A DNA stretch of 64,000 bases from a virus, in the IMG/VR virus record IMGVR_UViG_3300009034_000033, positions 1-64,000 of that record. One strand, 5' to 3'. This document shows, piece by piece, positions 6,905 through 34,361 of the stretch. Below the pieces are notes generated by a model that did not search any database, was not told the DNA's origin, and saw only the letters and a list, made by a program, of their open reading frames with translations. The translations under genes were made by a program, and so were the position numbers. Positions within the stretch are counted from its first letter, which is position 1, and the number at the start of each line of letters is the position of its first letter.

Positions 6905-6942
6905 TTCCCTGACTATGCTACCTATCATGGGATTTTATCAAC
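6905..6942 (-). repeat. Hairpin element, family B copy 3
   Basis: Noncoding copy with the conserved AAAATCCCATGAT core, followed by TCAGGGA just upstream of the start at 6886. It lies directly beside family A copy 4, so the 100-bp gap between the genes at 6886 and 6989 consists almost entirely of the two elements. Confidence 0.55.
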
Positions 6943-6945
6943 TTT

Positions 6946-6984
6946 TTCCCTGACTAACATTTTAGCTCAGGAATTTGTTAACCT
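6946..6984 (-). repeat. Intergenic hairpin, family A copy 4
   Basis: Read leftward, CCTGA-CTAA (with one bulged G) pairs with TTAG-TCAGG. The flank is the diverged GGTTAACAAATT. It is in tandem with element B3. Confidence 0.55.
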
Positions 6985-6988
6985 TTTA

Positions 6989-7270: not shown

Positions 7271-7454
7271 TCAAATCCCTCCTTAATCTTTCTCGATTTG
7301 CTATATTATCACAGACTTCACACTCAAACTCAAACGGACAACAACGACAAGCAAAAGGTAAAACATAGTAAAGAGTTTCAGTCGTCCCAATACTAGGATG
7401 CGGAATATCTATTCCTATTTCTTTGAATTTTCTTGCAATATCATGGATTGTCAT
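7260..7454 (-). CDS. Small Cys-rich protein
   Basis: 64 residues from the ATG at 7454, which has GGAAGGAATTG upstream; a TTG nine bases earlier is in frame. It contains CRCCPFEFECEVC, a compact cysteine cluster related to the CxxCPxxxxCE knuckles seen in several other proteins of this phage. Metal binding is likely; function unknown. Start and end overlap both neighbours. Confidence 0.55.
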   Translation of the reverse strand: MTIHDIARKFKEIGIDIPHPSIGTTETLYYVLPFACRCCPFEFECEVCDNIANRERLRRDLNEN

Positions 7455-7788
7455 CGGAATCAATTCCTTCCGTTAACAACCTCCAACCCTCTTCTTCAAA
7501 CCATTCCTGGCCTTCTTCGAGTGTTGAAGCCCATTTCCCGTCTTTCGCGTCATTAGCCAGCCTAGGAAATCCTGCTGCTTCCAAATCATTAACCAATGCG
7601 ATCGTAGGATAAGCGATGGGCGTTTTGTAATCATCATAATATCCTTCCTCAGCTCTAGTTATTATGTTCTCTAATCTTTCGTCGTTTACAGCTTTTAGAT
7701 CTCTCACCAATCTATCAACCGTTGATAACTTTTTCTCTTCTTCCTTAGCTTTTCTTCTCTTCTTTACAGGTCCTAGTGGTTTTTTCAT
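7441..7788 (-). CDS. Hypothetical protein with basic N-terminus
   Basis: 115 residues. The first 25 are strongly basic (KKRRKAKEEEKK); the rest is helical and acidic. Not recognised. The ATG overlaps the stop of the preceding gene (ATGA), and the SD lies in hairpin element B5. Confidence 0.5.
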   Translation of the reverse strand: MKKPLGPVKKRRKAKEEEKKLSTVDRLVRDLKAVNDERLENIITRAEEGYYDDYKTPIAYPTIALVNDLEAAGFPRLANDAKDGKWASTLEEGQEWFEEEGWRLLTEGIDSDDNP

Positions 7789-7985
7789 TTTTCCCCCTGA
7801 CCATGCTTCCGATCATGGGATTTTTCATGGATTATTTCAATCCTGTTGGATTCTACAAAACCAACTATCTCATACCATCCTTCTAATGAACTGCCATCAA
7901 TGAGTTTTTCTGGTATTCCTGTCAATTCTGATAGCAATTTTGGATCCTTTATTTGGTCCCCTATATTCTCTTCGGTAAAAATCAT
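7785..7985 (-). CDS. Hypothetical protein with hairpin-encoded tail
   Basis: 66 residues, unknown. The last codons (KSHDRKHGQGEK) are the translation of hairpin element B5, and the stop overlaps the next start. It follows the HAD-family gene with a short gap. Confidence 0.5.
   Translation of the reverse strand: MIFTEENIGDQIKDPKLLSELTGIPEKLIDGSSLEGWYEIVGFVESNRIEIIHEKSHDRKHGQGEK
7793..7832 (-). repeat. Hairpin element, family B copy 5 (coding overlap)
   Basis: CCATG (7801-7805) pairs with CATGG (7826-7830). In copy 2 the same helix is CTGGC/GCCAG, so the stem is changed on both sides while pairing is kept. The core CCCATGATC is conserved. Confidence 0.65.
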
Positions 7986-9874: not shown

Positions 9875-10176
9875 TTACTTTTTGCTTCCTCATTGGCCAA
9901 GGAAGGATCATCTTTTAATCTTGGCTTATAATTATATCCATCAGGTCTAATTGGAACACCATAGATCCCTTTATTAGCTTTCCAGTAAATGTGAGATGCT
10001 CCACAATCACAACAAGCGATATGACAAACTTTTCCAAATCCTTCATACTCTTCATAATCAGAATAACAAGGACGATCATTTCTGGTCCATCTTACCTCCC
10101 ATGGAAATAGTCGTAGATTTATTTCCCCTAAGATCTGAATCAGATAAGTGATTAGACTATATAGCAAAAGTCTCAT
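9856..10176 (-). CDS. Hypothetical protein with possible N-terminal membrane helix
   Basis: 106 residues. Residues 1-25 are hydrophobic (LLLYSLITYLIQIL). The remainder has CHIACCDCGASHIYW, a small cysteine cluster, and ends in charged residues. The start overlaps the stop of the upstream gene (TAATG). Function not assigned. Confidence 0.55.
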   Translation of the reverse strand: MRLLLYSLITYLIQILGEINLRLFPWEVRWTRNDRPCYSDYEEYEGFGKVCHIACCDCGASHIYWKANKGIYGVPIRPDGYNYKPRLKDDPSLANEEAKSKWNTNR

Positions 10177-10538
10177 TAGAATTTAGCTCCTTCAGATTCC
10201 AAACCAAGAATAAATTTATAGAAAGCACAATCATTTCTTTGATTACATTGAATGCATCCATCTATTGCGTCAGAAAGTCCTTCTTTTGCCCAATCTTTTG
10301 CGAATTCTCTGCCGTACTCTATCATTTTTTGAAAAAGTTCGCCTTTCTTTCCTTTAGATACTTTTTCAAAAAGTTGATCCGATTTTCTCTCGAAGACTGC
10401 CATCAGATAAAAATAAAGTGGAAGAGGTAATTCAGAATAAGCATCTTCAATCATCCGAGAAATTCTATCCTTATAAGCTAAAAATTTGGCGACGTCTCTG
10501 TCAACTCTTAGACTTCCATTATCCAGTAATCTTCCCAT
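10176..10538 (-). CDS. Helical protein with Cys knuckle
   Basis: 120 residues from the ATG at 10538, preceded by GAGGGAAA; a longer frame exists but has no ribosome-binding site. Near the C-terminus CIQCNQRNDC matches the CxxCxxxxxC knuckle repeated in other proteins of this phage. Mostly helical otherwise; unknown function. Confidence 0.55.
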   Translation of the reverse strand: MGRLLDNGSLRVDRDVAKFLAYKDRISRMIEDAYSELPLPLYFYLMAVFERKSDQLFEKVSKGKKGELFQKMIEYGREFAKDWAKEGLSDAIDGCIQCNQRNDCAFYKFILGLESEGAKF

Positions 10539-11010
10539 TAGATTTTCCCTCATCAAGAAAACAAAGTAAGTAATTTTTAATTGATGTAGAAATCCCACCA
10601 ACTCTTATATGTTTATATCCTAAAGCAGGCAATATAAATCCTAAAATATGATTAAGTGGCATCTCGTATTTATCTAATATATCCAATATAGTTCCACAAT
10701 TTACATAAGATAAAGAAGAAGGATTAACGAATGGAATGGAATTAAAGAAACCTCTAATTGAATTAAGAAGACTATTAACTTTTTCTACGGAAATTATATC
10801 TTCCTCGTCTTTCTTCTTCATTTCATAGTCTGAAGGTGTCTTAACAAAATAGATAACTTCCATATCATTTACTTCATTTGATAAATCTGTTATTGATTTC
10901 ATAAGTTGACCATCTGGTCTAAGATGATAACCTTGCGCAATAGCCTCTTCAGAATCTAATACATTGCCTTCTTTATCCATCACTTTGAAAGTTATTGTCA
11001 TTGGGATCAT
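10519..11010 (-). CDS. Hypothetical protein, shares C-terminal domain with the 11572 gene
   Basis: 163 residues. Residues about 75-145 match the C-terminal domain of the 341-residue protein at 11572: KVNSLLNSIRGFF versus KVDRLLHSIRSFF, then ILDILDKYEMPLNHIL versus ILDLLDHFKMPLNYIL, both ending in ILPALGYxxI. This is a paralogous domain of unknown function. The ATG at 11010 has AAAGGG upstream. Confidence 0.6.
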   Translation of the reverse strand: MIPMTITFKVMDKEGNVLDSEEAIAQGYHLRPDGQLMKSITDLSNEVNDMEVIYFVKTPSDYEMKKKDEEDIISVEKVNSLLNSIRGFFNSIPFVNPSSLSYVNCGTILDILDKYEMPLNHILGFILPALGYKHIRVGGISTSIKNYLLCFLDEGKSNGKITG

Positions 11011-11449
11011 GGTTAATCCCTTTCTCTTTTTTTGGTTTTAGAATTGGAAAATATAAGTTGAAATATGGATCCAATTCTGGAATACTTATTTTATGGAAAC
11101 CACTTTTTCTTTCTAAAAAAGATCCAGTTTCTCGACCTATTAGAACATTATAAGAACCACTTTCTGTCGGTGTTCCCGGATAACAATATCCAATAGAAGT
11201 TGGTCCATAGATTTCTTGTACTCTACCATCATCAAAGCGATAGAAATATTGAATCCTAGCGAATTTCTCTGTTTCTGGTTCTCTTATATCGATACATGGT
11301 TTTTCTATTTTTTCTTGATCTTTTTCATTACTACGAACCTTCTCCTGGCATTTTCTAATACTGAAAAAGATCCCTGTTCCCAAGAATAGCAAAACAGCGA
11401 AGATAAGACTTCCGTAAGCAATTACATTGATCTTTGTATTACTCGACAT
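10973..11449 (-). CDS. Single-pass membrane protein
   Basis: 158 residues from the ATG at 11449, with GGAGAGAT at ideal spacing. One transmembrane segment (about residues 8-30, ending in a Phe-rich stretch) is followed by a Lys/Glu linker and a beta-rich extracytoplasmic domain with two cysteines. Same architecture as the first gene of the window, but without obvious sequence similarity. Confidence 0.6.
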   Translation of the reverse strand: MSSNTKINVIAYGSLIFAVLLFLGTGIFFSIRKCQEKVRSNEKDQEKIEKPCIDIREPETEKFARIQYFYRFDDGRVQEIYGPTSIGYCYPGTPTESGSYNVLIGRETGSFLERKSGFHKISIPELDPYFNLYFPILKPKKEKGINHDPNDNNFQSDG

Positions 11450-11514
11450 TCTTATCTCTCCATTCATTCAATAATCAATTCTATTTTTCAATTTTACATC
11501 TAGCATAATTATCT

Positions 11515-11560
11515 CTCGTATCCCCAGGACTTCATATTTGATCCACAGACGTCCTAAAAT
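11515..11560 (-). repeat. Dispersed element E, minus-strand copy
   Basis: The minus strand reads AGGAC, then GTCTGTGGATCAAATATGAA, then GTCCT. The flanks can pair as a 5-bp stem. It lies about 60 bp upstream of the gene starting at 11449. Related copies are at 5573 (opposite orientation) and near 54165. Confidence 0.45.
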
Positions 11561-11571
11561 TCTTTTTCTGA

Positions 11572-12597
11572 CTAATCATCCTCGTCTTCGCCTTCTATTG
11601 ACTCTAAGGAGCCATCAGACGCTTCAATATAAGTATACCCTAAAGCTGGTAAGATATATTGGAGAATATAATTGAGAGGCATTTTGAAATGATCCAACAA
11701 ATCTAGTATAGTTTCACAGTCTTGAGGGATCCCATAAGTAGAAGTGAAAGGAAGAGTGCCAAAGAAACTTCTGATTGAGTGGAGAAGCCTATCAACTTTT
11801 TTTCTGGAAATCTTAGCTTTCTTTTCCTCTACCCATGCTTCCAATGGCGGATCTTCTGTTATACTTGATCTTTGTGAAATTATCAGATTTTCAAAGTCAT
11901 GCATTTTATCACACAATTCGCAACGAATAACTCCACTAGGAATATCTTTTCTATTTACTATATGCCAATGACGACTATTACAACATGGAGTGACTTTGAT
12001 TGGTCTTTTTTCTTCTTCTATTTCTTGTCTTCTTTGATAAGCTTCAATCCCACCACCATATTTTTCCATTGTCTTTCTAATTTCTTCAGCCCATTGAATA
12101 TCCGTCATAGCACAAATTTGGCGAAGATTCCAGAAAGCCATCCAAAGCTTGCCAAGAGATCGTTTTACCATTATCATTTCTTCCCTAGTAACTGGACCAG
12201 CTACAGGAATCATACAATGAATAAACGCTAGATTTTCTGAGAAACCTTTTGTCTCATCAGTTTTCATAGGTCCATCTCGTTGGATTACATTATCAACTTC
12301 ACAATATTCTACAACTGGACACACGGTACAATCCTCGTCTGTTGAAATCAAGGATTCCATAGAATGACCATGAACCGCCAATAAACTTCTACAATAAATA
12401 CGGCTATTAGTATTCTTTGAATTTTCCATTTCTTTTTCCCTTTTTCTTTTATCAGATTGAATTTCACATTGCTCATAGACCGGACATTGAAGACAATCTT
12501 CAATGTCTTGAATCAAAGTAAAACCATGTTTATCCATCAGTTTAATGCAATATTCATATTCGCCATCGGAATCAAACGGAGTTCTCATAGTCTCCAT
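11572..12597 (-). CDS. Cys-knuckle protein with C-terminal paralogous domain
   Basis: 341 residues, unknown function. The N-terminal half has two copies of a knuckle, CLQCPVYEQCE and CTVCPVVEYCE, about 60 residues apart. A further C4-type cluster (CCNSRHWH...CELC) lies in the middle. The last 75 residues repeat the domain found in the 10519 protein. Several metal-binding sites in one protein suggest an interaction scaffold, but this is only an inference. Confidence 0.6.
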   Translation of the reverse strand: METMRTPFDSDGEYEYCIKLMDKHGFTLIQDIEDCLQCPVYEQCEIQSDKRKREKEMENSKNTNSRIYCRSLLAVHGHSMESLISTDEDCTVCPVVEYCEVDNVIQRDGPMKTDETKGFSENLAFIHCMIPVAGPVTREEMIMVKRSLGKLWMAFWNLRQICAMTDIQWAEEIRKTMEKYGGGIEAYQRRQEIEEEKRPIKVTPCCNSRHWHIVNRKDIPSGVIRCELCDKMHDFENLIISQRSSITEDPPLEAWVEEKKAKISRKKVDRLLHSIRSFFGTLPFTSTYGIPQDCETILDLLDHFKMPLNYILQYILPALGYTYIEASDGSLESIEGEDEDD

Positions 12598-12600
12598 TTT

Positions 12601-13701
12601 CTATCTCCATTTAGATTGCAAAAAATCATATTCCTTCTTGGTATAAATTTCTATAAATTCAACCTCAATATCTCTCCAAGAAGGATAACCGGTTTTGAAA
12701 ATCTGTTTCACAGAATACCTAGCTCCCGCCATCCCCATCTTGATTGCATCCCAAGTATACATACCAGCCATAAAACAAGCAGAATAAATCGCGGCTAAAG
12801 TATCGCCAGCTCCACAAGGATTGATGTTACCCAAAACAGGTTTAGTTGGAATATCAATTCGTTCCATCTTATTAACATTCGTATAAATAGAAACCCCTTC
12901 TTCTTTTCTTGTCAAAATTATATACTCGCTATGAGTTTTATAAAAGAGACGACTAACATCTATATTCGAAGGATCAGTCATCAGTCCTGCATCAAGTAAT
13001 TCATTCGGTTTCTCTTTCTCGCTATCTATGTACACATCAACTTTTTTTAATTCTTCTTGGTTAAGAATAAGATGGGCTATATCATCAAAAGTATGTATTC
13101 TTTCTCTTGAGGTTCCGAAAATCCCTATCCCTAAAGTCTTCCCTAAAGAAACAACTTTCTCTATAATTCTGGTAGTACAGACTCCATTACCTTCTTCATT
13201 ATAGTCAGCAATGACTATAAAATCACATTTAGGACCAATGATAGAAATATTCTCCAAAAGTTGTTTCTTTACTCGTTCAGAGATCGGATCGGTTGCAGAA
13301 TCAATTCTCATCAAATGATGGCCAATAGGTAAGAAATGCTTTCCAAATACAGGTGTTTCATCTTCAACCATATAGTCTGTATGGATTCCTTTATTTAATA
13401 ACAATCTCTCAAGAACAACCCTATCCCAATCAGTTCCAAGAATATCGCTATAATCAAATGGTTTTCCCCAAATGCCACAAGCCCAGGTTTCAACGCCTAA
13501 ATGGGCTAGATTAAAAAGAAGATTGCCTCCACCACCAGGATTATAGGTTCTTATTTTTTTAGGATACCTGAAAATTGGTAATCCTTCAATCTCTCGAGAC
13601 TCCCCTTTATAAAATCCTATAGTATTTATATCCAGAGCTATATCACCAACAAGGAGACATTTCAAATTTCTAACTTTCTCTTCTAATTGACATAAACTCA
13701 T
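12601..13701 (-). CDS. PfkB-family heptose-7-phosphate kinase (HldE N-domain-like)
   Basis: 366 residues. NPGGGGNLLFNLAHLG (about 53-68) corresponds to the substrate loop of HldE/RfaE kinases (PGGAANVAxNxAxLG). NPCGAGDTLAA (about 297-307) is the PfkB active-site signature with the catalytic Asp. In bacteria this enzyme phosphorylates heptose-7-phosphate at O1 to give the 1,7-bisphosphate. The C-terminal nucleotidyltransferase domain of HldE is absent. GmhB-like (15752) and GmhA (35876) genes in the same genome supply the adjacent steps, which strengthens the assignment over ribokinase or fructokinase. Confidence 0.75.
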   Translation of the reverse strand: MSLCQLEEKVRNLKCLLVGDIALDINTIGFYKGESREIEGLPIFRYPKKIRTYNPGGGGNLLFNLAHLGVETWACGIWGKPFDYSDILGTDWDRVVLERLLLNKGIHTDYMVEDETPVFGKHFLPIGHHLMRIDSATDPISERVKKQLLENISIIGPKCDFIVIADYNEEGNGVCTTRIIEKVVSLGKTLGIGIFGTSRERIHTFDDIAHLILNQEELKKVDVYIDSEKEKPNELLDAGLMTDPSNIDVSRLFYKTHSEYIILTRKEEGVSIYTNVNKMERIDIPTKPVLGNINPCGAGDTLAAIYSACFMAGMYTWDAIKMGMAGARYSVKQIFKTGYPSWRDIEVEFIEIYTKKEYDFLQSKWR

Positions 13702-14426
13702 TTTTCTTCTTCCTCTATTGGCCGAATCCCGAAAGTCTTGTCGACTACTATTTTGGGGGGATTGAGCAATGTCTGTTTTATTAAAAGTTCTCTCTCTATT
13801 TTGGCTATTTGTGCACGTTTATAATTTTTTCTCCATTTATCCATATAAGCAATTTTGATTTCTTCGGGAGAAAGTTCTCTCTTGAAAAAGATACAATTTA
13901 TAAGAAACCATATCTCTTTCATAATATTGGTAAAAGAATCAATATCTATTTCTGCTCCTTCTTCTCGCCAAGGTCTTTTTCGAAGAAGCTGATTTAACTT
14001 ACCGATTTCTACAGTTGTTCGCCAGAAAAGAGAAGGAAATCCTTGGAGAAATTCCAAGGGCAAAGAATAAGGTTCTCCTATTACTCTTTTTTCTCTCATT
14101 TCACCGAGAAAATTCCATTTGGATAGATCACTCTGTAAATTAGTCAAAATGACTAATTCCAGATAATAGAAGAGACTATCGATCAACTCATCTTTTGGAG
14201 GCCAAAATTCAACCATAGTTTTATTCTCTCCAGCTGCTTCCCAGCAAGCCATATCAGCTTCAGTCAATTCTTGAATAATGCGATAGGAGATAGCTCTTAT
14301 CCAACTTTGTCCCTCCACAGAATCAAGATCTAAAGGAATTTGAACGATACCTTCCAGATCTTGGTAAAGGACCAGTAGTTCGCCATGTTTAGCTAGAAGG
14401 AATTCAGTGTCTAATTTTTCTGCCAT
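13698..14426 (-). CDS. All-alpha dUTPase-like protein
   Basis: 242 residues. RIIQELTEADMACWEA (ExxE-type) and KDELIDSLFYYLEL (ExxD with a following hydrophobic helix) are arranged as in dimeric dUTPases of the MazG superfamily. Towards the C-terminus LSPEEIKIAYMDKWRKNYKR matches the conserved Y..K...N..R helix of that family. It would convert dUTP to dUMP, feeding the thymidylate synthase-like enzyme and limiting uracil in DNA. The ATG overlaps nothing upstream; the stop overlaps the kinase gene start. Confidence 0.6.
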   Translation of the reverse strand: MAEKLDTEFLLAKHGELLVLYQDLEGIVQIPLDLDSVEGQSWIRAISYRIIQELTEADMACWEAAGENKTMVEFWPPKDELIDSLFYYLELVILTNLQSDLSKWNFLGEMREKRVIGEPYSLPLEFLQGFPSLFWRTTVEIGKLNQLLRKRPWREEGAEIDIDSFTNIMKEIWFLINCIFFKRELSPEEIKIAYMDKWRKNYKRAQIAKIERELLIKQTLLNPPKIVVDKTFGIRPIEEEEK

Positions 14427-14453
14427 TTATTTTATTCTCCCTTTTCTTCAATA

Positions 14454-14900
14454 TTAGGAATGTATTACTTCCCAACATCTATTAACATCTATCCCAGCTT
14501 CTTGTAATAAATCCAAGGATTTATTGGAAGGATAATCTTCCCAATAAGCAATTTCTTTTATTCCTGCATTTATTATAAGCTTGGCACAGGAAAGGCATGG
14601 TTTATGAGAGCAATACAGAATTGCTCCTTTCAATCGAATTCCCTCTCGAGCTGAATTTGCTATACAATTGGCCTCAGCATGTGCCCCTGGACATTTATCC
14701 AAATTTTCTCCAGCTTTTGAATCTCGACGAACACAGGTCTCTTTTGTACAATGTTTAATCTTTCTTGGAACACCATTATAACCTGTCCCAATTATTGAAC
14801 CATCTTGGGAAGTGACAATGGCTGCAGTCTGACGTCTTAAACAAGTGGATTCTGATTTAAGAACATCAAGCATTAGTTTGATTGTGTGAAGATCTTTCAT
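14454..14900 (-). CDS. dCMP deaminase
   Basis: 148 residues from the ATG at 14900; a TTG nine bases earlier is in frame. HAEAN (His74, Glu76) and PCLSC (Cys102, Cys105) form the zinc site and proton shuttle of the cytidine/deoxycytidylate deaminase fold. TGYNGVPR is the typical substrate-binding stretch, and the insertion with extra Cys/His (HCTKETCVRR) is common in phage T4-type enzymes. It converts dCMP to dUMP for thymidylate synthesis. Confidence 0.9.
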   Translation of the reverse strand: MKDLHTIKLMLDVLKSESTCLRRQTAAIVTSQDGSIIGTGYNGVPRKIKHCTKETCVRRDSKAGENLDKCPGAHAEANCIANSAREGIRLKGAILYCSHKPCLSCAKLIINAGIKEIAYWEDYPSNKSLDLLQEAGIDVNRCWEVIHS

Positions 14901-15168
14901 CTTCTTCAAATTCCTTTGCTGTAATTTGAGCTTCTATTTCTTCTAAAGTTCGCTGTTCCCCAGCTTCAAATCCTTCTTCGAATCCTTCTCGATATATTCT
15001 TTCCATTTCAATCATAATATCATCAAGCGCTTTATCGTATTCCCAATATCCAAGATTTCCATAATCTACAATATCGATTTTGGATCCTAAAATATCCGCT
15101 ATTTTCTCTCTTTCTGATCTGAGATCTATTTGAATTTCGACAAACCCTTCTGGATTCTGTGTAACCAT
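14866..15168 (-). CDS. Hypothetical acidic helical protein
   Basis: 100 residues, acidic, with a probable amphipathic helix (EGFEEGFEAGEQRTLEEIEA). Not recognised. It overlaps the phosphatase gene upstream and the deaminase downstream, so it sits in a translationally coupled trio. Confidence 0.5.
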   Translation of the reverse strand: MVTQNPEGFVEIQIDLRSEREKIADILGSKIDIVDYGNLGYWEYDKALDDIMIEMERIYREGFEEGFEAGEQRTLEEIEAQITAKEFEEDERSSHNQTNA

Positions 15169-15587
15169 TCTTTGTGTGCCTTATTGATATTGACTCGATC
15201 ATATTTTCTCTTCATCATTTCTTCAACTTCATTGAAGGATCTGGAAAGTTTGTAGCTCAAATAAGTTCCAGCAATAAAACAAGAACGACTAGCCCCTTCC
15301 CAACAATGGACCAAAACATGGGTTCTATATGTAACCAGAAAATCGAGACTTAAAATTGCCATAAGATACTCTTCTAATGTATTCCCTGGTCCATCTGTCA
15401 ATCCAGCATGAATATATGTCAATCTTCGGGAATGTTTTTGGATCTCAAAACAATCATCTGCCACGTTTAAGACCGCTTTTATTGGTGGTTTGAAAAGAGG
15501 ACTATCACCTGCTTTCATTTCCCCTTCAACAAAAGATACTGCTTCTAATGCCTTTCCAACCCAGATCCCTGGAAATATTTCTACCAT
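15126..15587 (-). CDS. Dual-specificity protein phosphatase
   Basis: 153 residues matching the DSP fold. VHCWEGASRS (His94-Cys95...Arg101) is the HCx5R phosphate-binding loop, and Asp65 in GLTDGPGN is placed to be the general acid. N-terminal FPGIWVGKALEA and AVLNVADDC match typical DSP strands. Such enzymes dephosphorylate Tyr/Ser/Thr or, in some clades, RNA 5' ends, sugars or lipids. Its host or phage target is unknown. A GGAGGG SD overlaps the end of the preceding 52-residue gene. Confidence 0.8.
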   Translation of the reverse strand: MVEIFPGIWVGKALEAVSFVEGEMKAGDSPLFKPPIKAVLNVADDCFEIQKHSRRLTYIHAGLTDGPGNTLEEYLMAILSLDFLVTYRTHVLVHCWEGASRSCFIAGTYLSYKLSRSFNEVEEMMKRKYDRVNINKAHKEWLHRIQKGLSKFK

Positions 15588-15591
15588 AATT

Positions 15592-15750
15592 TTATCCCTC
15601 CGGCCAAGCTGAATGTGGAGAAATTGGAGTTATAGAATTCTCGTAATCCTCTCTCCAAAAAGCTATTTGATCCCAATATCTTTTCTTTCCTTCAGCAATT
15701 TCGGAGAGTAAGACTATTAGGATTAGAATTAGTTCTGATTTCTCTTCCAT
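15592..15750 (-). CDS. 52-residue protein
   Basis: A short frame between the GmhB-like and phosphatase genes. It starts one base after the preceding TAA and ends in GGAGGGATAA, which contains the SD of the following gene. The N-terminal half is hydrophobic (LILILIVLL), the C-terminal half polar and aromatic. The tight packing on both sides supports it being expressed. Confidence 0.55.
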   Translation of the reverse strand: MEEKSELILILIVLLSEIAEGKKRYWDQIAFWREDYENSITPISPHSAWPEG

Positions 15751-15751
15751 C

Positions 15752-16489
15752 TTATTCTCTAAAATAGTAATAACAGTTGGGATTAGAACAATAATAGCAA
15801 CCTGTTCCTTTATGTTTAATCAATGGTTGATTGCATTCTTGGCAAAGGAGTTCCTTTCCTTCTTTTTTTCTCCAATTTCTTCCAAGAACTATATCCACAG
15901 CATCCAACAAATCCTCAGCAATGTAGTCAGCACCAGGCGCTATCTTATCTTCCTCAGGACAAAAATTAAGGGGAATATGAACGGTAGTACAACAAGCTTC
16001 ATTTCCTGCTATTATATCTGTTGGATTATCGCCTATCATATAACTTTTTTCAAGTATTATTCCCAGATCCTTCGCTGCTTGGAGAAGCATAGTTGGTTTA
16101 GGTTTTCTACATTCACAAGGAATTGCTGGATCGTGAGGACAGTAATAAGCTTTGATAATTTGACCTCCACTGCTCCATATTTCCCTAGCCATATAAAGGG
16201 AAATATCTTTCAAAGTACCGATTTCCATAAATCCTCTTTCGACTCCTTCTTGATTCGAGATTACTACAATTGGCCAACCTGCTATAGTAAGTTCTCGAAT
16301 TGCTCGCTTTGATCCTGGACGAAAGTAGAATTCATTCATTTCAGTAATAAGATGAAGATCTGGATTACCAGAACTTCTATCGTTCTCATTCACACAACCT
16401 TCTCTATCAAGAAAAACTACCCCTCGATCCAAAGAGTTGAAATCTGAAGGGGGATGGTGCCAAACATCGATCATTGCTAGTCTTGTCAT
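15752..16489 (-). CDS. GmhB-like heptose-bisphosphate phosphatase with zinc ribbon
   Basis: 245 residues. The HAD core resembles GmhB: FLDREG (about 26-31), ISNQEGV, the zinc loop CPHDPAIPCECRKPKP, and GDNPTDIIAG. GmhB removes the 7-phosphate from heptose-1,7-bisphosphate. The second motif I aspartate (usually DxD) is Glu here, which could lower or change activity. After the HAD domain a C-terminal zinc ribbon (CQECNQPL...CYYCSNPNC) is fused, a domain normally seen in topoisomerases and not in GmhB. It may also act on another sugar phosphate. Confidence 0.75.
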   Translation of the reverse strand: MTRLAMIDVWHHPPSDFNSLDRGVVFLDREGCVNENDRSSGNPDLHLITEMNEFYFRPGSKRAIRELTIAGWPIVVISNQEGVERGFMEIGTLKDISLYMAREIWSSGGQIIKAYYCPHDPAIPCECRKPKPTMLLQAAKDLGIILEKSYMIGDNPTDIIAGNEACCTTVHIPLNFCPEEDKIAPGADYIAEDLLDAVDIVLGRNWRKKEGKELLCQECNQPLIKHKGTGCYYCSNPNCYYYFRE

Positions 16490-16501
16490 TTTTTCCTTCC
16501 T

Positions 16502-16594
16502 TTAACATCGAGATAGAATGGCCAAAAGGATAACGATTAGAACCACTCCTAAGCATATGGATAAATTCCAAAAAAATTTAGATGCAAATATCAT
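16502..16594 (-). CDS. 30-residue membrane peptide
   Basis: A very short frame with a strong SD (AAGGAGAA) six bases before its ATG. It encodes one hydrophobic helix (LGVVLIVILLAIL) with a basic, aromatic N-terminus. It lies between the SbcC-like and GmhB-like genes with no room for another gene. Likely a small membrane protein. Confidence 0.5.
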   Translation of the reverse strand: MIFASKFFWNLSICLGVVLIVILLAILSRC

Positions 16595-16605
16595 TGGTAT
16601 TCTCC

Positions 16606-18366
16606 TTAAAGAATCTCTTCTACTGTCGAAATCCCATCCTTTTTTCGAACCATCAAGATTCGATCCCAAATTGCTGAATCTTTCAGATCATCTAAGTGAG
16701 TAATCACAAAAATAGACCGATTGCTAGATTTTTTCTCGCTTTGAAGTAATTCCAGAATTCCATCGCATCCTATGTCATCTAAACCCGAAAAAATTTCATC
16801 TAAGAATAGAAGAGAAACTGGACAAATTTTTTGGATATATGAAGCCAGAGAAAGAAGGATTGCTAAATCAATTCTTTTTCTTTCGCCTCCTGAGAGAGAA
16901 TGGTATCTTCGATCATCTTCTTCGATAAAGACTGAGAAATTTTCTCGTTGATCTCCTGCTTTAGTTTTTCTTCTGGTATCGAAACTTAAATTAAATTCTG
17001 GAGCTAAAAATCCAAGATATTCTTTCCCTTTCAAATTAAGATGAGGCAATGTTTGGTCAGCCAAAAAAGAAATAATTCCCTTAGCTCCAAAATTTTCAAC
17101 CCAGAAATTTACTAGATTTAATTGTCTCTGAAGTTTTCTCCTTTCCCTATCGCTCTTTTTCTTTTTACTTTCTACTTTAACCAAAGCTATTTCTATTTCC
17201 TTAATTCTGTTCTCAGCAGATTTCACGAGATTAAGACTTTGGGAGAAAGATTCCTGAACCGCTACAATCTGAGTTTTTAATCTATTAAGATCTGCATCTA
17301 TTTCTTTTATACCATCCTCTGCTTTCTCTCTGTCCCCTTCCACCTTAAAATAATTGGCTTCTATCTCTGCAAGTTGACTTTGGAACCCTTTTCTTTTTTC
17401 TTTTTTTCTTGCTAATTTTTTATAAGGTAAAGCTGAGCGTAGTTTTTCCCTCTGATCATCTGATACTGCTTGTTTACAGAGAGGACATTGCGCTTCTATT
17501 TGATAAAGAGCGTCCTCGCCCCTAGCAATCTCATCTTCGAGACGTTTTATCCCAGCCAAAAAAGTTTCATATTCGGTCCTTAGGCGTTCACGAATTTTTG
17601 GTTTAAGCCTTTGATCCAGGGAATCGAGTGAAAATTGCAGCTGTGTCCGTTTTTGGGTTAATGCGAGTCTCTCAGCTATAAATTGACGCTTTTTTTCTTC
17701 TACTTCTTCTTGGATCTGTTCGATGGATATTAAAAGATGTTCTTTACTCAAAGTCAGTTCGCTTCTCAAGGTTTCAATTGCCCCTTCAGAAAATGAAATA
17801 TTCTTTTCAATAACCTCTATCCCATTTTCTATTTCCCGAGAAATAGTTTTAGCTAGTTTTTGATAGATCTGAAATCTTTCAAGTCTAAGAATTTCTATTA
17901 GAATTTTCTTTCGGAATTGATCGGCTGAATTGGCAAAAGTTTCAAATCTATCTTGTGGAAGATAGATTGCGGATGCAAAAAGGTCAGAGGAGATAGGGAA
18001 ATTGAAATCTGGTATTCTTTCTCCATTCTTTCCAGTTATCTCGAAAAATGGTTTAGATTTAACTCTCCCTCGATAAAAAGTATAAGGATTTCCTCTAAAA
18101 TCAAAACTAGCTCTGACTAAGCAATCTTCGTTGGGAAGTTTCTCTCTTGAGACTACTTCAGTAGATCTACATCCTCTCGAAGTTTTTCCGAATAGACAAA
18201 AATAAAGGGCTTCGAAGATTGTAGATTTTCCAGATCCATTAGAAGAAGAGAAAGCTGAATCTTCATTCTCTCCCAAAATCAAAGTAAGAGATTTAGGAAA
18301 TAAATCAATATGAGTCTGTCTATGAGAGAAAAAATTCTCTATTTGGATCGACTTAAATTCCAACAT
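16606..18366 (-). CDS. SbcC/Rad50-like recombination ATPase (T4 gp46 type)
   Basis: 586 residues with SMC-like order. Walker A NGSGKST lies near residue 43-49. Two coiled-coil arms flank a zinc hook (CPLC). The signature SLSGGERKRIDLAI and Walker B LLFLDEIFSGLD come near the C-terminus. The size matches T4 gp46 more closely than cellular SbcC. With the gp47-like nuclease it would process DNA ends for recombination-dependent replication. It overlaps the nuclease gene by 14 bases, as is usual for this pair. Confidence 0.9.
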   Translation of the reverse strand: MLEFKSIQIENFFSHRQTHIDLFPKSLTLILGENEDSAFSSSNGSGKSTIFEALYFCLFGKTSRGCRSTEVVSREKLPNEDCLVRASFDFRGNPYTFYRGRVKSKPFFEITGKNGERIPDFNFPISSDLFASAIYLPQDRFETFANSADQFRKKILIEILRLERFQIYQKLAKTISREIENGIEVIEKNISFSEGAIETLRSELTLSKEHLLISIEQIQEEVEEKKRQFIAERLALTQKRTQLQFSLDSLDQRLKPKIRERLRTEYETFLAGIKRLEDEIARGEDALYQIEAQCPLCKQAVSDDQREKLRSALPYKKLARKKEKRKGFQSQLAEIEANYFKVEGDREKAEDGIKEIDADLNRLKTQIVAVQESFSQSLNLVKSAENRIKEIEIALVKVESKKKKSDRERRKLQRQLNLVNFWVENFGAKGIISFLADQTLPHLNLKGKEYLGFLAPEFNLSFDTRRKTKAGDQRENFSVFIEEDDRRYHSLSGGERKRIDLAILLSLASYIQKICPVSLLFLDEIFSGLDDIGCDGILELLQSEKKSSNRSIFVITHLDDLKDSAIWDRILMVRKKDGISTVEEIL

Positions 18367-19423: not shown

Positions 19424-20431
19424 TTATTTACCCGCCTTTCCTAATCTCTCCAGAAGATTTTCGATTGATTCTTCTTCATCCTCATCTTCATCCTCATCTT
19501 CATCCTTATCCTCATCGTCATCTTCATCTTCGTCTTCATCTATTGGCTTTTTCTTGGGAGTCCGACTTGGAGTCCGTTTTTTCTTTTTCTTTGGTTTATC
19601 TTCTATCTCATCCTCATCCTCATCCTCATCTTCATCCTCGTCCTCGTCTTCTTCTGGTTCCTTTCTTGCTTTTGATTTTTTTCGAGGTTTATCTTCATCC
19701 TCATCGTCTTCTCTATCATCCCTTCTGCCTTTTTTCTCGATCCAAGCTTCAAGGAGTTCTTCCAACTTATCTGGATCTGTTTCAGGAGAGATAGATCTCA
19801 AATCAAATCGATTCTCAAGCAATTCATCCAAGTCTTCTTGAGAATCTGCGATTGAACTAGGATTTCGTCTGAATCTGATTGAAGGATATTCGGTGTTTAG
19901 TCCAGTTCCTGTTCTTTCCACCGTAACATCAAAACCATCAACCGGATGGACTATATCATCTCCCCAATCTGGATCTCTCAAGTGAGCTAGGAATTCTTTC
20001 AGAAAAGTATTGCCAGAAGAGTAAATCTGGACCCCAGCATCCTCATCTTCCCTATCAAGTATATTGAAGAAAATTCTTCTGGTTCCAGATAATGGATGAT
20101 CTCTGCCTCCCCTTTTTTCCACATATATACAGATTGGACACTTTTTCTTTCCAGGACAAGTCAATGGAATAGGTCCTAGTCCATAATGCAGAAAGACCTT
20201 GCGATAAGGAACCCTTTCTCCGGATAAAGGGGGTAAAACTCGAATTCTATTTTTCCCTTCAGCCGGTTTCCACCAAGGAATATTGTATTCGCCTGATAAT
20301 TCGGCTTCTTGCTGATCATCCTCAACTTCATCCATATCAATTTCATAATCCGGTTCATACTTTAATGCTGCTCTTTTTGCTTTAGCCATTTTTCTCTCCA
20401 ATGCTTGTAATCTTGCCCAATTGCTTCTCAT
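19424..20431 (-). CDS. gp32-like single-stranded DNA-binding protein with very long acidic tail
   Basis: 335 residues. WWKPAEGKNRIRVLPP, KVFLHYGLGPIPLTCP and KKCPICIYVEKR match the OB-fold and zinc site of T4 gp32-like proteins. From about residue 240 the chain becomes alternating acidic (DED runs) and Lys/Arg/Pro blocks, ending in ENLLERLGKAGK. gp32 has a short acidic tail that recruits replication partners; here it is roughly a hundred residues. The repetitive codons make a poly-Ser shadow frame on the other strand that is not a gene. It overlaps the U32-like gene by 4 bases. Confidence 0.82.
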   Translation of the reverse strand: MRSNWARLQALERKMAKAKRAALKYEPDYEIDMDEVEDDQQEAELSGEYNIPWWKPAEGKNRIRVLPPLSGERVPYRKVFLHYGLGPIPLTCPGKKKCPICIYVEKRGGRDHPLSGTRRIFFNILDREDEDAGVQIYSSGNTFLKEFLAHLRDPDWGDDIVHPVDGFDVTVERTGTGLNTEYPSIRFRRNPSSIADSQEDLDELLENRFDLRSISPETDPDKLEELLEAWIEKKGRRDDREDDEDEDKPRKKSKARKEPEEDEDEDEDEDEDEDEIEDKPKKKKKRTPSRTPKKKPIDEDEDEDDDEDKDEDEDEDEDEEESIENLLERLGKAGK

Positions 20432-30296: not shown

Positions 30297-30623
30297 TCAT
30301 TCTCCAGTTTTGGGATAAAATTCAAGCTTTCTCATACCTCCGAATATAGTTTGAATTTCAAATTCCATTCCACATTGCTCAAGAAGCCAAATGAGTCCGT
30401 GAGGTCCTTCACCTCTATAACCAAATGAAAAACCGTCAAGAACCAAAATAGCTTCAGAACCATGGATATAAGTGGAAAATTCATCACTGATTTCCATTAT
30501 TACAACTTTGATAATTCTTCCCAGTTCACCGCGATATTTGAGAAACTGTTCCTTACTATATTCGGTTACACCAGCAGGAAATTCGTCTTGATAGATTTCT
30601 CTTTTCAATCCTTGACTGCCCAT
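30297..30623 (-). CDS. Hypothetical protein
   Basis: 108 residues, alpha/beta, with no known motif. GGGGAGGTG lies upstream of the ATG. This gene is directly downstream of hammerhead-like element 1; cleavage there would leave it on an RNA with a 5' hairpin. Confidence 0.5.
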   Translation of the reverse strand: MGSQGLKREIYQDEFPAGVTEYSKEQFLKYRGELGRIIKVVIMEISDEFSTYIHGSEAILVLDGFSFGYRGEGPHGLIWLLEQCGMEFEIQTIFGGMRKLEFYPKTGE

Positions 30624-30666: not shown

Positions 30667-30765
30667 TCTGAAGAGATTTGGCTGCTCATTCAGCTTCAAG
30701 CCACCACGCTTGAAGGATAGAACATAAACCACCTCCTTTTTATGTTCTATTTCGCTTTAGTCAGA
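30667..30765 (-). ncRNA. Hammerhead-ribozyme-like RNA, copy 1
   Basis: Minus-strand order: C-GAAA (30754-30750); a 12-bp stem III (30750-30739 with 30728-30717, AUAG.../...CUAU) whose loop is AAGGAGGUGG; a single C at 30716, the cleavage-site position; an 8-bp stem I (30715-30708 with 30701-30694) with loop GUGGUG; then CUGAAUGA (30693-30686). G-C and C-G pairs open stem II, with UCUGA/UCAGA (30761-30765 with 30667-30671) closing it. Compared with the hammerhead core CUGAUGA there is one extra A. It begins at the stop codon of the 30757 gene. Activity is untested. Confidence 0.65.
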
Positions 30766-31095
30766 GTGAATGGATAGAGTTGAATCTTGAGAGATTGCTT
30801 CTCCAGTTTCAATGTCTATCATTATTCCATTTCTAATTTTCACTGTTTTTGGCCAATTATCAAAACCGATTTGAATCTTCTCTCTAGCTGCTCTAAGAGC
30901 TGATCTATCTTCAGTAAATTGACCAAGATTAGTGATTCTGGTCTCTCCGTGATGCAGATCACATTCGATCAACAAATAGATTTCCCCTTCCCCTCCTTTA
31001 AGAATACTATCCACAAAAGCTGCTGCTTCTACATAAGTATTCAAAGGATAGCGGGCTTTATCTCTCAAATCTCTGATTGCTTCTTCTCTAGTCAT
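30757..31095 (-). CDS. Hypothetical protein
   Basis: 112 residues, alpha/beta. It contains YLLIECDLHHGETRITNLGQFTEDR-like strands with a His-His pair; no family identified. Its last codons and stop form the 5' part of hammerhead-like element 1. Confidence 0.5.
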   Translation of the reverse strand: MTREEAIRDLRDKARYPLNTYVEAAAFVDSILKGGEGEIYLLIECDLHHGETRITNLGQFTEDRSALRAAREKIQIGFDNWPKTVKIRNGIMIDIETGEAISQDSTLSIHSD

Positions 31096-31128
31096 GGTTT
31101 AATCCGTCCCTTCTATATTCTTAATACA

Positions 31129-31398
31129 TTATCCTAACAAACTTCCTACAGCTTTGGCATGATTATCTCTTGCTCTAGCAAACTGAAATCCTCTGGTTTT
31201 ATCGGTAAACTTCTTATATATGCCAGTCGGTTTATAGAACACTATTACACAATCATCATACAAATAGGCTTCTACTTCTCGACTTCTATATTCATAAAGT
31301 TTCTTGAATCCCTTTGGAGCACAGTTAACTTTTTCTCCATCATCATACCAATTTATTTTTGCCTCAAATTCAGCGGCTTTTATTTGATGATCATTCAC
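31129..31398 (-). CDS. Hypothetical protein (GTG start)
   Basis: 89 residues from a GTG with GGAGGT at good spacing, the SD being inside the end of the preceding 27-residue gene. The beta-rich core (VEAYLYDDCVIVFYKPTGIYKKF) is vaguely like KTSC-type small domains, but I would not assign it. Confidence 0.5.
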   Translation of the reverse strand: MNDHQIKAAEFEAKINWYDDGEKVNCAPKGFKKLYEYRSREVEAYLYDDCVIVFYKPTGIYKKFTDKTRGFQFARARDNHAKAVGSLLG

Positions 31399-31402
31399 TT
31401 TT

Positions 31403-31486
31403 CTACCTCCATCCTCGTTTGAATAGAAAACCGAGAAAAAGTTCGATCGCCATTCCCGAGGAAATAATAACTACCGAATAAATCAT
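31403..31486 (-). CDS. 27-residue membrane peptide
   Basis: A tiny frame with a very strong SD (AAGGAGGGGG). It encodes a hydrophobic peptide ending in basic residues (FKRGWR). It ends just before the GTG of the next gene and begins after hammerhead-like element 2. Its good signals make it a plausible small membrane protein. Confidence 0.5.
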   Translation of the reverse strand: MIYSVVIISSGMAIELFLGFLFKRGWR

Positions 31487-31501
31487 TCTAACCCCCTCCT
31501 T

Positions 31502-31610
31502 TTTTATCTGACGAACATTGGCTGCTCATTCAACCCAAATCCACCACGATGTGACGATAGAGACCGGAATCATTTCAAATCCCTCCTCTTCATTTTAGTT
31601 CTGATAATCA
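31502..31610 (-). ncRNA. Decayed hammerhead-like RNA, copy 2
   Basis: Aligns with copies 1, 3 and 4: CUAU-C with the C at 31556, the GUGGUG loop at 31547-31542, and UUGAAUGAGCAGCC. However, core C3 is U, the CGAAA segment reads CUAAA (and contains the upstream gene's stop), the first stem I pair is G-G and another pair is C-U. Stem III is imperfect. It probably no longer cleaves. Confidence 0.5.
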
Positions 31611-31939
31611 AAAAATTCTATTTTACACTTGCATTTTTTAGATTTCAAGATTTCAATCTGTTCTTCGAGAGTCTGCCATTCCTCTACATTACCTCCATAG
31701 CAAACTCTTTTTTTCATTTTCATCGGATTAAAACCACGTGAAAGCATTTCCTTCCTAACCAGGTAAAGGATATGCCATAATTTTTCTGGACAGTTTTCGA
31801 ATACAAGAGTTTGTGGATGATTTCTCCATCCTTTAAGATTATTAGTTATTACAGAATAGATTGTCCATCCTTCATGCCACATAGATCTTAAATGTATGTC
31901 GCATAAATATGGAATCAACTTTTCATCCCATATTCTCAT
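31595..31939 (-). CDS. Hypothetical protein
   Basis: 114 residues from the ATG at 31939, which has AAAGGATGAT upstream; an earlier in-frame ATG at 31975 lacks an SD and lies right after hammerhead-like element 3. Rich in Trp, Cys and Lys near the C-terminus (KSKKCKCK). Not recognised. Confidence 0.5.
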   Translation of the reverse strand: MRIWDEKLIPYLCDIHLRSMWHEGWTIYSVITNNLKGWRNHPQTLVFENCPEKLWHILYLVRKEMLSRGFNPMKMKKRVCYGGNVEEWQTLEEQIEILKSKKCKCKIEFFDYQN

Positions 31940-31984
31940 AGTATCATCCTTTATTAACCAACGACCGTAACCCATAAAAGTATT

Positions 31985-32065
31985 CTGAATATTGGCTGCT
32001 CATTCAGCCCAAATCCACCACGATTTGGGGATAGGGGGTTAAACCCCCTATTTCGCAATATTCAG
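31985..32065 (-). ncRNA. Hammerhead-ribozyme-like RNA, copy 3
   Basis: The most compact copy. C-GAAA (32055-32051); 9-bp stem III (AUAGGGGGU/ACCCCCUAU, loop UUA); cleavage-position C at 32030; 8-bp stem I CCCAAAUC/GAUUUGGG with loop GUGGUG; core CUGAAUGA (32007-32000). Stem II has two pairs, an AGCC bulge, then nine pairs (32057-32065 with 31985-31993). Every stem sequence differs from copy 1 but pairing is retained. It lies about 70 nt past the 32134 gene. Confidence 0.68.
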
Positions 32066-32071
32066 TTGTAG

Positions 32072-32136
32072 ATCTATCGTTTTAGCTCCATTTTATTATA
32101 TCTCCTTAGTTAGATTTCCTTGATTAAATCTCCTTA
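32072..32136 (-). repeat. Three tandem AACTAAGGAGAT-like repeats
   Basis: On the minus strand the motif AACTAAGGAGAT, AATCAAGGAAAT, AACTAAGGAGAT recurs every 14-15 nt right at the stop codon of the 32134 gene. The last copy would serve as SD for a five-codon frame (MELKR). No larger gene follows before the ribozyme-like element. Confidence 0.4.
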
Positions 32137-32325
32137 GTTGGAGAATGGGAATTTCCCAAGTTTGAGAAATCCGAGACGAACTTTGGCTTCAGAAACCCGC
32201 AAAGATCCTGCTCTTTTTCCATTTATTCGTCTTATCATTTCTATCCAACCTTTTCTGCCGATAGACTGATAAGATATGCATGGATCATGCTTATTCAGAT
32301 TTCTGATCAGTCTTTCTTTTCTCAT
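32134..32325 (-). CDS. Small basic protein, paralogue of the 34142 gene
   Basis: 63 residues from an ATG with GGGGGAAAAG upstream. It starts MRKERLIRNLNKHDP and continues with YQSIGRKGWIEMIRRI, parallel to MRKEKLLKLLNERDP and YESAGRGLIRMFHKKI in the 34142 protein. Function unknown. Confidence 0.55.
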   Translation of the reverse strand: MRKERLIRNLNKHDPCISYQSIGRKGWIEMIRRINGKRAGSLRVSEAKVRLGFLKLGKFPFSN

Positions 32326-32359
32326 TTTTCTTTTCCCCCTTATCTGAATTAGATTTTTC

Positions 32360-33247
32360 TTACTTTTGCCTTGGTAGAAGATTGTGAGATTCCTTATACT
32401 TAGCATAATACCAAGATATGGATTTAGCTGAAGTCTTGGAATTAAATTCTTTCCTTGCTTCTTCTGCGATTTCAGTATAAGATTTCTCAGTTTGATTGGA
32501 ATCTGCAAGAATATCAAGGACAAAGCTTTGAATGGTTACTTTCTTCGATTTCTTCTCTTTATCCACTGCTTTCCTTAGAGTATCTTTCCAACCATCAACA
32601 TATCCTTCTAAGATGTTAGTTGTACCAGTCATAAGTAGACCGATTTGCCTAGAATCCAAAGGTTTTCTCTTATCCCAGAGGACAGAGATTTTTTCAACTT
32701 CAAATTCTATTTCTTCCTTTCCTCGAGAATCCAAGGAAATTGCTACTACAACCTCGACTATTTCGTTTGAGAGTGTATAGCGCCTTTCTTTGAGACTTCC
32801 GGTATAATGTGTAACTTTGAAATCCGGAAATAGTACCTTTACTTTTTCCAGATCAGATTTTTCGGTCTCTTCTTTTTCTCTTCTTCTTCTAAGAACAGCA
32901 TCATACTCAAACATCATTTTCTTAGTCTTTTGAACTAGTTTTTCTTTATTGGGTTTATTCCAAGTTCGATTTTTCAGGTTATAAGAAAGACCTATCCAAG
33001 ATTTGAGTTTAAGCTTATACTCAGAAGATGAAAAGGTTATTCTCATTCCACTTGGAACGTTTCTGAATTTATAGGAACTATCATAAGTTGGATGGATATT
33101 TACGAAGATCACGCCTTCTACAGTATTTATTTCAACAGTAGTTTTGTCTCTTTCTTTTCTTACTGCTAAACCACTGGTTCTCAACATTTCAAAAACTTCG
33201 TGGGCTATTTCCAATTGAGTCTGATTCGAATATTTTTCATTTTTCAT
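32360..33247 (-). CDS. Hypothetical protein with C-terminal WYxxxY domain
   Basis: 295 residues. The N-terminal 200 residues are beta-rich and basic, unknown. The C-terminal 60 (YTEIAEEARKEFNSKTSAKSISWYYAKY) match the domain in the 26165 protein and resemble a small helical DNA-associated domain. The leader holds the perfect palindrome CGCGTGTACACGCG beside the SD TAAGGAG. Confidence 0.55.
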   Translation of the reverse strand: MKNEKYSNQTQLEIAHEVFEMLRTSGLAVRKERDKTTVEINTVEGVIFVNIHPTYDSSYKFRNVPSGMRITFSSSEYKLKLKSWIGLSYNLKNRTWNKPNKEKLVQKTKKMMFEYDAVLRRRREKEETEKSDLEKVKVLFPDFKVTHYTGSLKERRYTLSNEIVEVVVAISLDSRGKEEIEFEVEKISVLWDKRKPLDSRQIGLLMTGTTNILEGYVDGWKDTLRKAVDKEKKSKKVTIQSFVLDILADSNQTEKSYTEIAEEARKEFNSKTSAKSISWYYAKYKESHNLLPRQK

Positions 33248-33262
33248 TGAATTGTCTCCTTA

Positions 33263-33276
33263 CGCGTGTACACGCG
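33263..33276 (-). promoter_or_regulatory. GC palindrome before the SD, copy 1
   Basis: CGCGTGTACACGCG is a perfect 14-bp palindrome just upstream of TAAGGAG and the ATG at 33247. Upstream flank AACTTATCATTTAAT is shared with copy 2. Confidence 0.6.
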
Positions 33277-33303
33277 ATTAAATGATAAGTTTTTAATCTT
33301 TCT

Positions 33304-33398
33304 GATGAGATGGCTTACTCATTCAGCTTACACCAACCACGATGTAAGGATAGGACATGAATCACCTCCTTTCAAGTCCTATTTCGTTTTTCTCAATC
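33304..33398 (-). ncRNA. Hammerhead-ribozyme-like RNA, copy 4
   Basis: C-GAAA (33386-33382); stem III AUAGGAC then a mismatch then UGAA, paired to UUCA and GUCCUAU, with loop AGGAGGUGA; cleavage-position C at 33349; 8-bp stem I CUUACAUC/GGUGUAAG with one U-G and loop GUGGUU; core CUGAAUGA (33326-33319). The second stem II pair is U-A where copies 1 and 3 have C-G. Stem II is closed by GAU-GAGA/UCUC-AUC (33391-33398 with 33304-33310). Its 5' end overlaps the stop of the 33393 gene. Confidence 0.65.
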
Positions 33399-33629
33399 TA
33401 CAACACAAGTAGAGGTCCCTCGACCACCGTGTTCTCTATCTTCAACTGTCATTCGGTACCTTGTGCAAGGCCCATTTTTGCCAGAGGTATACCATTCAAC
33501 ATATACTTCATCAGTAGAAGGTTCATTGTAAAGTTTTACTGGAATGCCCATACAAAGTCTTGACAATTCGGCAACCAGCATATAAAGATCCTCAATCTGT
33601 TTTCCTGTGTTCAAATCCATCGCTATCAT
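33393..33629 (-). CDS. Hypothetical protein
   Basis: 78 residues, alpha/beta (VKLYNEPSTDEVYVEWYTSG). Not recognised. Leader type D (GAATTTGAAAGGGGAAAAG) precedes the ATG at 33629. The stop codon is part of hammerhead-like element 4. Confidence 0.5.
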   Translation of the reverse strand: MIAMDLNTGKQIEDLYMLVAELSRLCMGIPVKLYNEPSTDEVYVEWYTSGKNGPCTRYRMTVEDREHGGRGTSTCVVD

Positions 33630-34141: not shown

Positions 34142-34312
34142 CTAAGAAAAGTAAGTGTAAAGTCTTTCTCTCATCTCATTCAAAGTAAAAGGACCGTGTC
34201 CTCTTCCTTTGATTTTCTTATGAAACATTCTGATCAAGCCACGACCAGCTGATTCATACCCGAATATAGGATCTCTTTCATTTAGCAATTTCAAAAGTTT
34301 TTCTTTTCTCAT
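34142..34312 (-). CDS. Small basic protein, paralogue of the 32134 gene
   Basis: 56 residues from the ATG at 34312, placed after the CGCG palindrome and AAGGGAG. MRKEKLLKLLNERDP is the shared N-terminus with the 32134 protein. A longer frame exists upstream but would run through the palindrome. Confidence 0.55.
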   Translation of the reverse strand: MRKEKLLKLLNERDPIFGYESAGRGLIRMFHKKIKGRGHGPFTLNEMRERLYTYFS

Positions 34313-34330
34313 TTGAATTTGCTCCCTTCG

Positions 34331-34342
34331 CGCGTGCACGCG
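34331..34342 (-). promoter_or_regulatory. GC palindrome before the SD, copy 2
   Basis: CGCGTGCACGCG, perfect palindrome, next to GAAGGGAG. Flank AACTTATCATCTAAT matches copy 1 with one change. Confidence 0.6.
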
Positions 34343-34361
34343 ATTAGATGATAAGTTTTGA

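Follow-up and report, generated by a model that had tools for sequence, protein, structure and literature searches.

Type II hammerhead RNAs with a one-base core insertion lie between small genes of a tailed phage and may cut its messenger RNA

Type II hammerhead ribozymes have been known since 2011 to occur in phages, clustered between genes (PMC3088659). Prophage tandem arrays in Clostridium scindens, in Azorhizobium and as a triple in Agrobacterium place several ribozymes around single small genes on one transcript, and a role in dicing messenger RNA (mRNA) was proposed by Perreault et al.; three multi-hammerhead phage transcripts were cleaved in vitro, one of them also in Escherichia coli (PMC3088659). 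A later review describes such motifs as flanking small, poorly conserved open reading frames (ORFs), as persistently associated with phage genomes and as having a role still to be settled (PMC6155905). Here, a stretch of viral DNA comprising bases 1-64000 of the 64,722-base record IMGVR_UViG_3300009034_000033 (the window) was analysed, which carries on its minus strand a hammerhead family of three intact copies and one relic. The reading we prefer, with a probability of roughly 0.7, is that these type II hammerheads cut a polycistronic mRNA between small genes, probably slowly.

Candidate copies were scored against Rfam release 15 and with a covariance model, R1, trained on 27 canonical type II elements from other phages and on no sequence from the window, and run with filters off. 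Stability of the fold is given as a z value relative to shuffled sequence. The copies and their parts are as follows; A6a denotes one base inserted after A6 of the core.
30671..30759, minus strand: copy 1, intact type II hammerhead with A6a; Rfam RF02276 49.1 bits, R1 56.7 bits, fold z -2.7
Copy 1 parts, minus strand: stem II 5' strand 30755-30754; stem III hairpin 30750-30717; C17 30716; stem I hairpin 30715-30694
Copy 1 parts, continued, minus strand: core CUGAAUGA 30693-30686; stem II 3' strand 30685-30684; then the pseudoknot tail GCCA
31515..31600, minus strand: copy 2, degenerate relic; Rfam 13.2 bits, R1 18.4 bits, fold z -0.9
31985..32060, minus strand: copy 3, intact type II hammerhead with A6a; Rfam RF02276 43.6 bits, R1 60.9 bits, fold z -3.3
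Copy 3 parts, minus strand: stem III 32051-32031; C17 32030; stem I 32029-32008; core 32007-32000
33304..33391, minus strand: copy 4, intact type II hammerhead with A6a; R1 39.4 bits (E 2e-7), fold z -2.8
Copy 4 parts, minus strand: stem III 33382-33350 (11 of 12 pairs); C17 33349; stem I 33348-33327; core 33326-33319

Copies 1, 3 and 4 have the permuted layout of the type II hammerheads described from bacteria and phages, which likewise cluster around phage genes (RF02276; PMC3088659): a junction of three stems, two of them (I and III) closed and the third, stem II, open and 2 base pairs long. In the 5' to 3' direction, stem II is followed by GAAA (G12, A13, A14 and A15.1), a stem III hairpin closed by the A15.1-U16.1 pair, a single unpaired C at position 17, a stem I of 8 base pairs whose loop is GUGGUG or GUGGUU, CUGAAUGA with its CUGA, and a GCC tail. 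This shared architecture had been described by a sequence-only reading of the window, and it holds for the three intact copies, as does the variation noted in the second stem II pair, which is C-G in two of them and U-A in one. The U-A pair, beside a G-C pair, is the compensatory state found in copy 4, where one extra A precedes GCC. The predicted cleavage sites lie 3' of C17, at the same positions (30716, 32030 and 33349) that had been given before. A contact between the loop, GGU(U), and (A)GCC in stem II had also been proposed; it is better read as UGGU of loop I with GCCA, the tail directly after stem II, which is the known type II pseudoknot.

The fourth copy of the earlier description, placed at 31502-31610, proved to be a relic that does not form the junction. 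In copy 2, UUGAAUGA replaces the strand that begins with CUGA (C3U), GAAG replaces GAAA so that A15.1 is lost, and stems I and III are mostly broken; its fold barely beats shuffled sequence, compared with z values of -2.7 to -3.3 in the intact copies. It retains A6a, the GUGGUG loop and GCAGCC. A covariance search had been suggested as a check, and with R1 it divided the family in the same way. Copies 1 and 3 exceeded the 37-bit gathering score of Hammerhead_II in Rfam (E = 5e-7 and 1e-5), and copies 3, 1 and 4 scored between 61 and 39 bits with R1 (E 1e-12 to 2e-7); Rfam gave no match for copy 4 with the threshold relaxed to E <= 10, and copy 2 scored low with both models, the next-best window site reaching 11.5 bits with R1. 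The three copies can thus be assigned to the type II hammerheads with good support: from Rfam, from a covariance model independent of the window and from covariation.

Other origins of these hairpins were considered. Chance hairpins were rejected on the E-values and the covariation, an intrinsic terminator on the absence of a U-run after stem III, and a mobile repeat because no flanking repeats were seen outside the element. The remaining weak Rfam matches, to snoRNAs and a miRNA, lie under their cut-offs and are due to chance. The pattern GTGGTGGN{4,9}CTGAATGAG used alone returned 75 stretches, mostly by chance, and only those that also fold as a hammerhead were kept.

The core departs from the consensus in a way that the sequence-only reading did not flag. 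Every window copy has one base inserted after A6, giving CUGAAUGA (or UUGAAUGA in the relic) in place of the standard CUGANGA, and in none of them does exactly one base separate A6 from G8, for which reason the window copies are regarded as variants and not as standard members; CUGA, GAAA and C17 are kept in the intact copies. A sequencing error was rejected, the extra A being found in all four copies and on other contigs. An insertion after A6 of the CUGANGA strand has been described among natural hammerheads. In the part of Perreault et al. 2011 that deals with it (Figure 5 and S6, PMC3088659), the measured activity was low, which was ascribed to a lost contact between U4 and the A6-N7 phosphate. 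Likeness to that ribozyme was judged by the insertion alone; the window insertion differs in spanning a whole paralogous family and five other phage lineages. Since the one measured example of the A6a variant had low activity, self-cleavage is less secure than the sequence-only reading implied, and A6a would be expected to slow cleavage relative to ordinary hammerheads.

The distribution of the A6a core was followed in IMG/VR. A narrow type II pattern with the canonical core gave at least 120 matches, and a wider pattern that admits the insertion gave 21 contigs, 6 of which held real hammerheads. In all, the A6a core was found in five other phage lineages, labelled L009/L032 (a duplicate pair, counted once), L057 (complete in L245), L203, L211 and L217; in L009 the A6a copy adjoins two copies that lack the insertion. 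A scan of genome contigs for the A6a core gave 4 matches, 0 of them with hammerhead upstream sequence. Recurrence in five other lineages speaks against an evolutionary dead end. Seven A6a elements were aligned, with stem III trimmed to its three outer pairs and the extra tail base of copy 4 omitted, and all 17 counted pairs, including the pseudoknot, form in every sequence, 11 of them having changed on both sides. Shuffled controls reached the pairing or covariation score in 0 of 500 cases, and slid alignments paired at 21-48%. The UGGU-GCCA pseudoknot is present in all seven, with one position that varies one-sidedly from U-G to C-G. The A6a variant is therefore described as rare, recurrent and structurally maintained, and apparently retained, which we take as evidence of some degree of function.

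These data bear on the possibility that the elements are inert or nearly inert relics, crippled as ribozymes by A6a and kept for their pair of hairpins or for nothing. The low activity of the measured variant, the visible decay of copy 2, and the extra tail base and stem III mismatch of copy 4 would all fit such an origin. We nevertheless consider it unlikely: three diverged copies all keep the core, the single unpaired C, the A-U closure and the pseudoknot intact, covariation in stems I and II is seen both among the copies and from lineage to lineage, and CUGA, GAAA and the tail would be superfluous if the hairpins alone mattered.

Placement relative to genes was examined in 144 type II hammerheads from fetched viral contigs (loci L009-L203 and the window, which contributes 3), a sample picked by a loop-and-core pattern and so representing that subtype. 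In 114 of 144, an upstream ORF of 60 codons or more has its stop codon ending between -12 and +1 from stem II, compared with a mean of 7.5 and a maximum of 13 at random positions, and in 72 of 144 the stop codon ends within -1 to +1 (1.6 expected). With similar upstream sequences removed, 88 of 115 keep this placement. The next start codon bearing a Shine-Dalgarno sequence lies a median of 20 nucleotides past the core. Window copies 1, 2 and 4 begin 1, 1 and 5 nucleotides past a stop codon, respectively. The genes around the hammerheads lie on the minus strand, as do the elements, and are mostly small and without family; those next to the copies are as follows.
30297..30623, minus strand: ORF downstream of copy 1; 108 amino acids, phrog_19231, function not known
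30757..31095, minus strand: ORF upstream of copy 1; 112 amino acids, no family; stop ends 1 nucleotide before stem II
31595..31975, minus strand: pyrimidine-dimer DNA glycosylase gene (PF03013, E 4.7e-16), between copy 3 and relic copy 2; stop 1 nucleotide before the relic
32360..33247, minus strand: ORF downstream of copy 4; 295 amino acids, no family
33393..33629, minus strand: ORF upstream of copy 4; 78 amino acids, no family; stop ends 5 nucleotides before stem II

An extreme arrangement of this kind was seen in IMGVR_UViG_3300017605_000570 (L087/L246), where 24 type II hammerheads occupy 7.6 kb (bases 9935-17519); there is roughly one for each small ORF, and most of them directly adjoin a stop codon. 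Unlike the window copies, all 24 are GC-rich, have the canonical CUGAUGA core and have no Shine-Dalgarno sequence in stem III. The tandem arrays of prophages, which resemble the window in having several ribozymes about single small genes, differ from it in their genes and in that the tested ones were shown to cleave (PMC3088659). Both the 24-copy array and the placement at stop codons fit a role in mRNA dicing.

The window derives from a tailed phage, as judged from its major head protein, tape measure, neck protein, SbcD-like nuclease and DNA polymerase. The region 28.5-36 kb has no DNA similarity to any of 50,697 phage records, and BLAST of copy 1 against phages gave chance-level matches and nothing more. 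No confirmed relatives of the 295-amino-acid ORF or of the tape-measure protein were found in the viral contigs of IMG/VR, and the DNA polymerase has distant matches, at about 32% identity or less among the matches listed. The phage thus looks isolated: among isolate phages and in IMG/VR, neither its DNA nor two of its proteins revealed a close relative.

Taken with the gene order, the structure points to a course of events in which a polycistronic mRNA would be transcribed and each intact copy would fold, the UGGU-GCCA pseudoknot joining stems I and II. The cut would fall 3' of C17, leaving an upstream message that ends in the stem III hairpin, directly past the stop codon, with a 2',3'-cyclic phosphate, and a downstream message that opens with the stem I hairpin and bears a 5'-OH. 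Neighbouring genes would in this way be separated into units with hairpin-protected ends. With A6a the cut would probably be slow, so that uncut messages may be present alongside cut ones. The structure, the family match, the covariation and the position relative to genes are established; cleavage, its slowness and the effect on the mRNA are all things that we infer. Four observations count against cutting of the mRNA as the explanation. The measured activity reported for an A6 insertion in that part of Perreault et al. (PMC3088659) was low. Copy 2 has decayed, and the element is therefore dispensable at least at that site. Copy 3 is not closely behind a long ORF, its upstream ORF not abutting it. 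Finally, no close relative of the phage was found by which to trace vertical conservation of the copies.

A second feature that had gone unnoticed, besides A6a in all copies, is a strong Shine-Dalgarno sequence with an AUG inside stem III of two copies. Matches were sought with a general bacterial 16S ribosomal RNA (rRNA) tail.
30730..30739, minus strand: Shine-Dalgarno match in the stem III loop of copy 1; AAAGGAGGTG, a 10-nucleotide perfect complement of the 16S rRNA 3' tail
30725-30723, minus strand: AUG of the copy 1 micro-ORF, in the stem III 3' arm; MFYPSSVVA, running to 30696 and spanning the cleavage site
33361..33373, minus strand: Shine-Dalgarno match in the stem III loop of copy 4; GAAAGGAGGTGAT, a 13-nucleotide perfect complement of the 16S rRNA 3' tail and the longest in the window
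33358-33356, minus strand: AUG of the copy 4 micro-ORF, in the stem III 3' arm; MSYPYIVVGVS, running to 33323 and spanning the cleavage site

Both micro-ORFs stop in stem I or the core, and the spacing from Shine-Dalgarno sequence to AUG is normal. Matches of at least 10 nucleotides occur at just three sites on both strands of the window (128 kb of strand), namely copies 1 and 4 and the ribosome-binding site of one gene, the only one of the 77 predicted genes of this phage with a 10-nucleotide match; the chance of such a long match in a random 34-nucleotide stretch is 2e-4. Copies 1 and 4 share an unchanged AAAGGAGGTG stretch but differ by two compensatory changes in stem III and in about half of stem I. 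AGGAGG and AUG are also retained in relic copy 2, and stem III of copy 3 has no Shine-Dalgarno sequence. In these AU-rich, Shine-Dalgarno-bearing stems the two copies differ from described type II hammerheads (RF02276): among the 141 other phage elements of the sample, AGGAGG was found in stem III of one and this loop with AUG in none, and targeted scans of IMG/VR (2.9 million viral contigs) yielded no hammerhead with a Shine-Dalgarno loop and AUG. Just upstream of copy 3 (about 32080-32150, minus strand) lie a repeated AAGGAG and a 5-codon ORF, ATG GAG CTA AAA CGA TAG, with a good ribosome-binding site; copy 3 too therefore adjoins a micro-ORF.

The loop Shine-Dalgarno sequences and AUGs suggest competition between ribosome and ribozyme as a possible additional function. 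A ribosome would dock on the loop of copy 1 or 4 and start at the AUG in stem III, and in translating the 9-11 codon ORF would unfold stems III and I, so that translation and self-cleavage would exclude each other; a slow A6a core would leave ribosomes the time to win. Perfect matches of 10 and 13 nucleotides with a correctly spaced AUG, rare in 128 kb of strand, and the identity of the AAAGGAGGTG stretch in copies whose stems differ by compensatory changes would fit such gating. We still regard it as improbable, because the feature is lacking from stem III of copy 3 and from the other phage hammerheads and viral contigs searched, the micro-peptides are largely set by the ribozyme sequence, and copies 1 and 4 are paralogous and hence not independent. 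The same loop data could be explained by a parked ribosome, a 30S or 70S particle that sits on the Shine-Dalgarno sequence, close to the 3' terminus left on the upstream mRNA by the cut, and blocks 3'-5' exonucleases. This would be a 3' counterpart of STAB-SD, in which a Shine-Dalgarno sequence of the 5' untranslated region determines mRNA stability and which is established (Agaisse and Lereclus 1996, as cited in PMC3997798). That precedent works at 5' ends, and an AUG truncated on its 3' side is more likely to draw ribosome rescue, so this explanation seems to us very improbable indeed.

Several further features of the window were recorded. Near the ribozymes are two small proteins of 64 and 65 amino acids (32134-32328 and 34142-34339), apparent paralogues with function not known. 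Paired 47-nucleotide repeats (33247-33293 and 34313-34359), with the palindromes CGCGTGTACACGCG and CGCGCGTGCACGCG, lie just upstream of two genes and are possibly operators or leader hairpins. At 4291-7832, among small minus-strand genes, there are two repeated intergenic families, 4 copies around CAGGGATTTATTAAC and 5 around ATCATGGGATTTT, with hairpins and GGGGGAAA-type ribosome-binding sites in some members; neither family has a match in Rfam, and they may be regulatory leaders of no known kind. A 335-amino-acid protein carries long Asp/Glu repeats (DEDEDE...) near its end (19446-19720, minus strand).

The occurrence of type II hammerheads between phage genes is in itself a small novelty, such clustering having been described in 2011. 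New here are a paralogous family in which every member has the A6a core, and two very strong Shine-Dalgarno loops; among the papers listed by a literature search directed at the question, no title or abstract describes translation and ribozyme cleavage as naturally linked. This locus, the stop-codon rule drawn from 144 elements and the 24-copy array make mRNA dicing directly testable, the array being its extreme case and an excellent experimental target. The A6a family offers a natural test of whether a supposedly poor core variant remains in use. If the Shine-Dalgarno sequence in stem III is functional, it would connect translation with ribozyme cleavage in a natural RNA, and if the ribosome does gate the ribozyme, ribosome loading on a micro-ORF that spans the cleavage site would decide between one mRNA and two genes cut apart.

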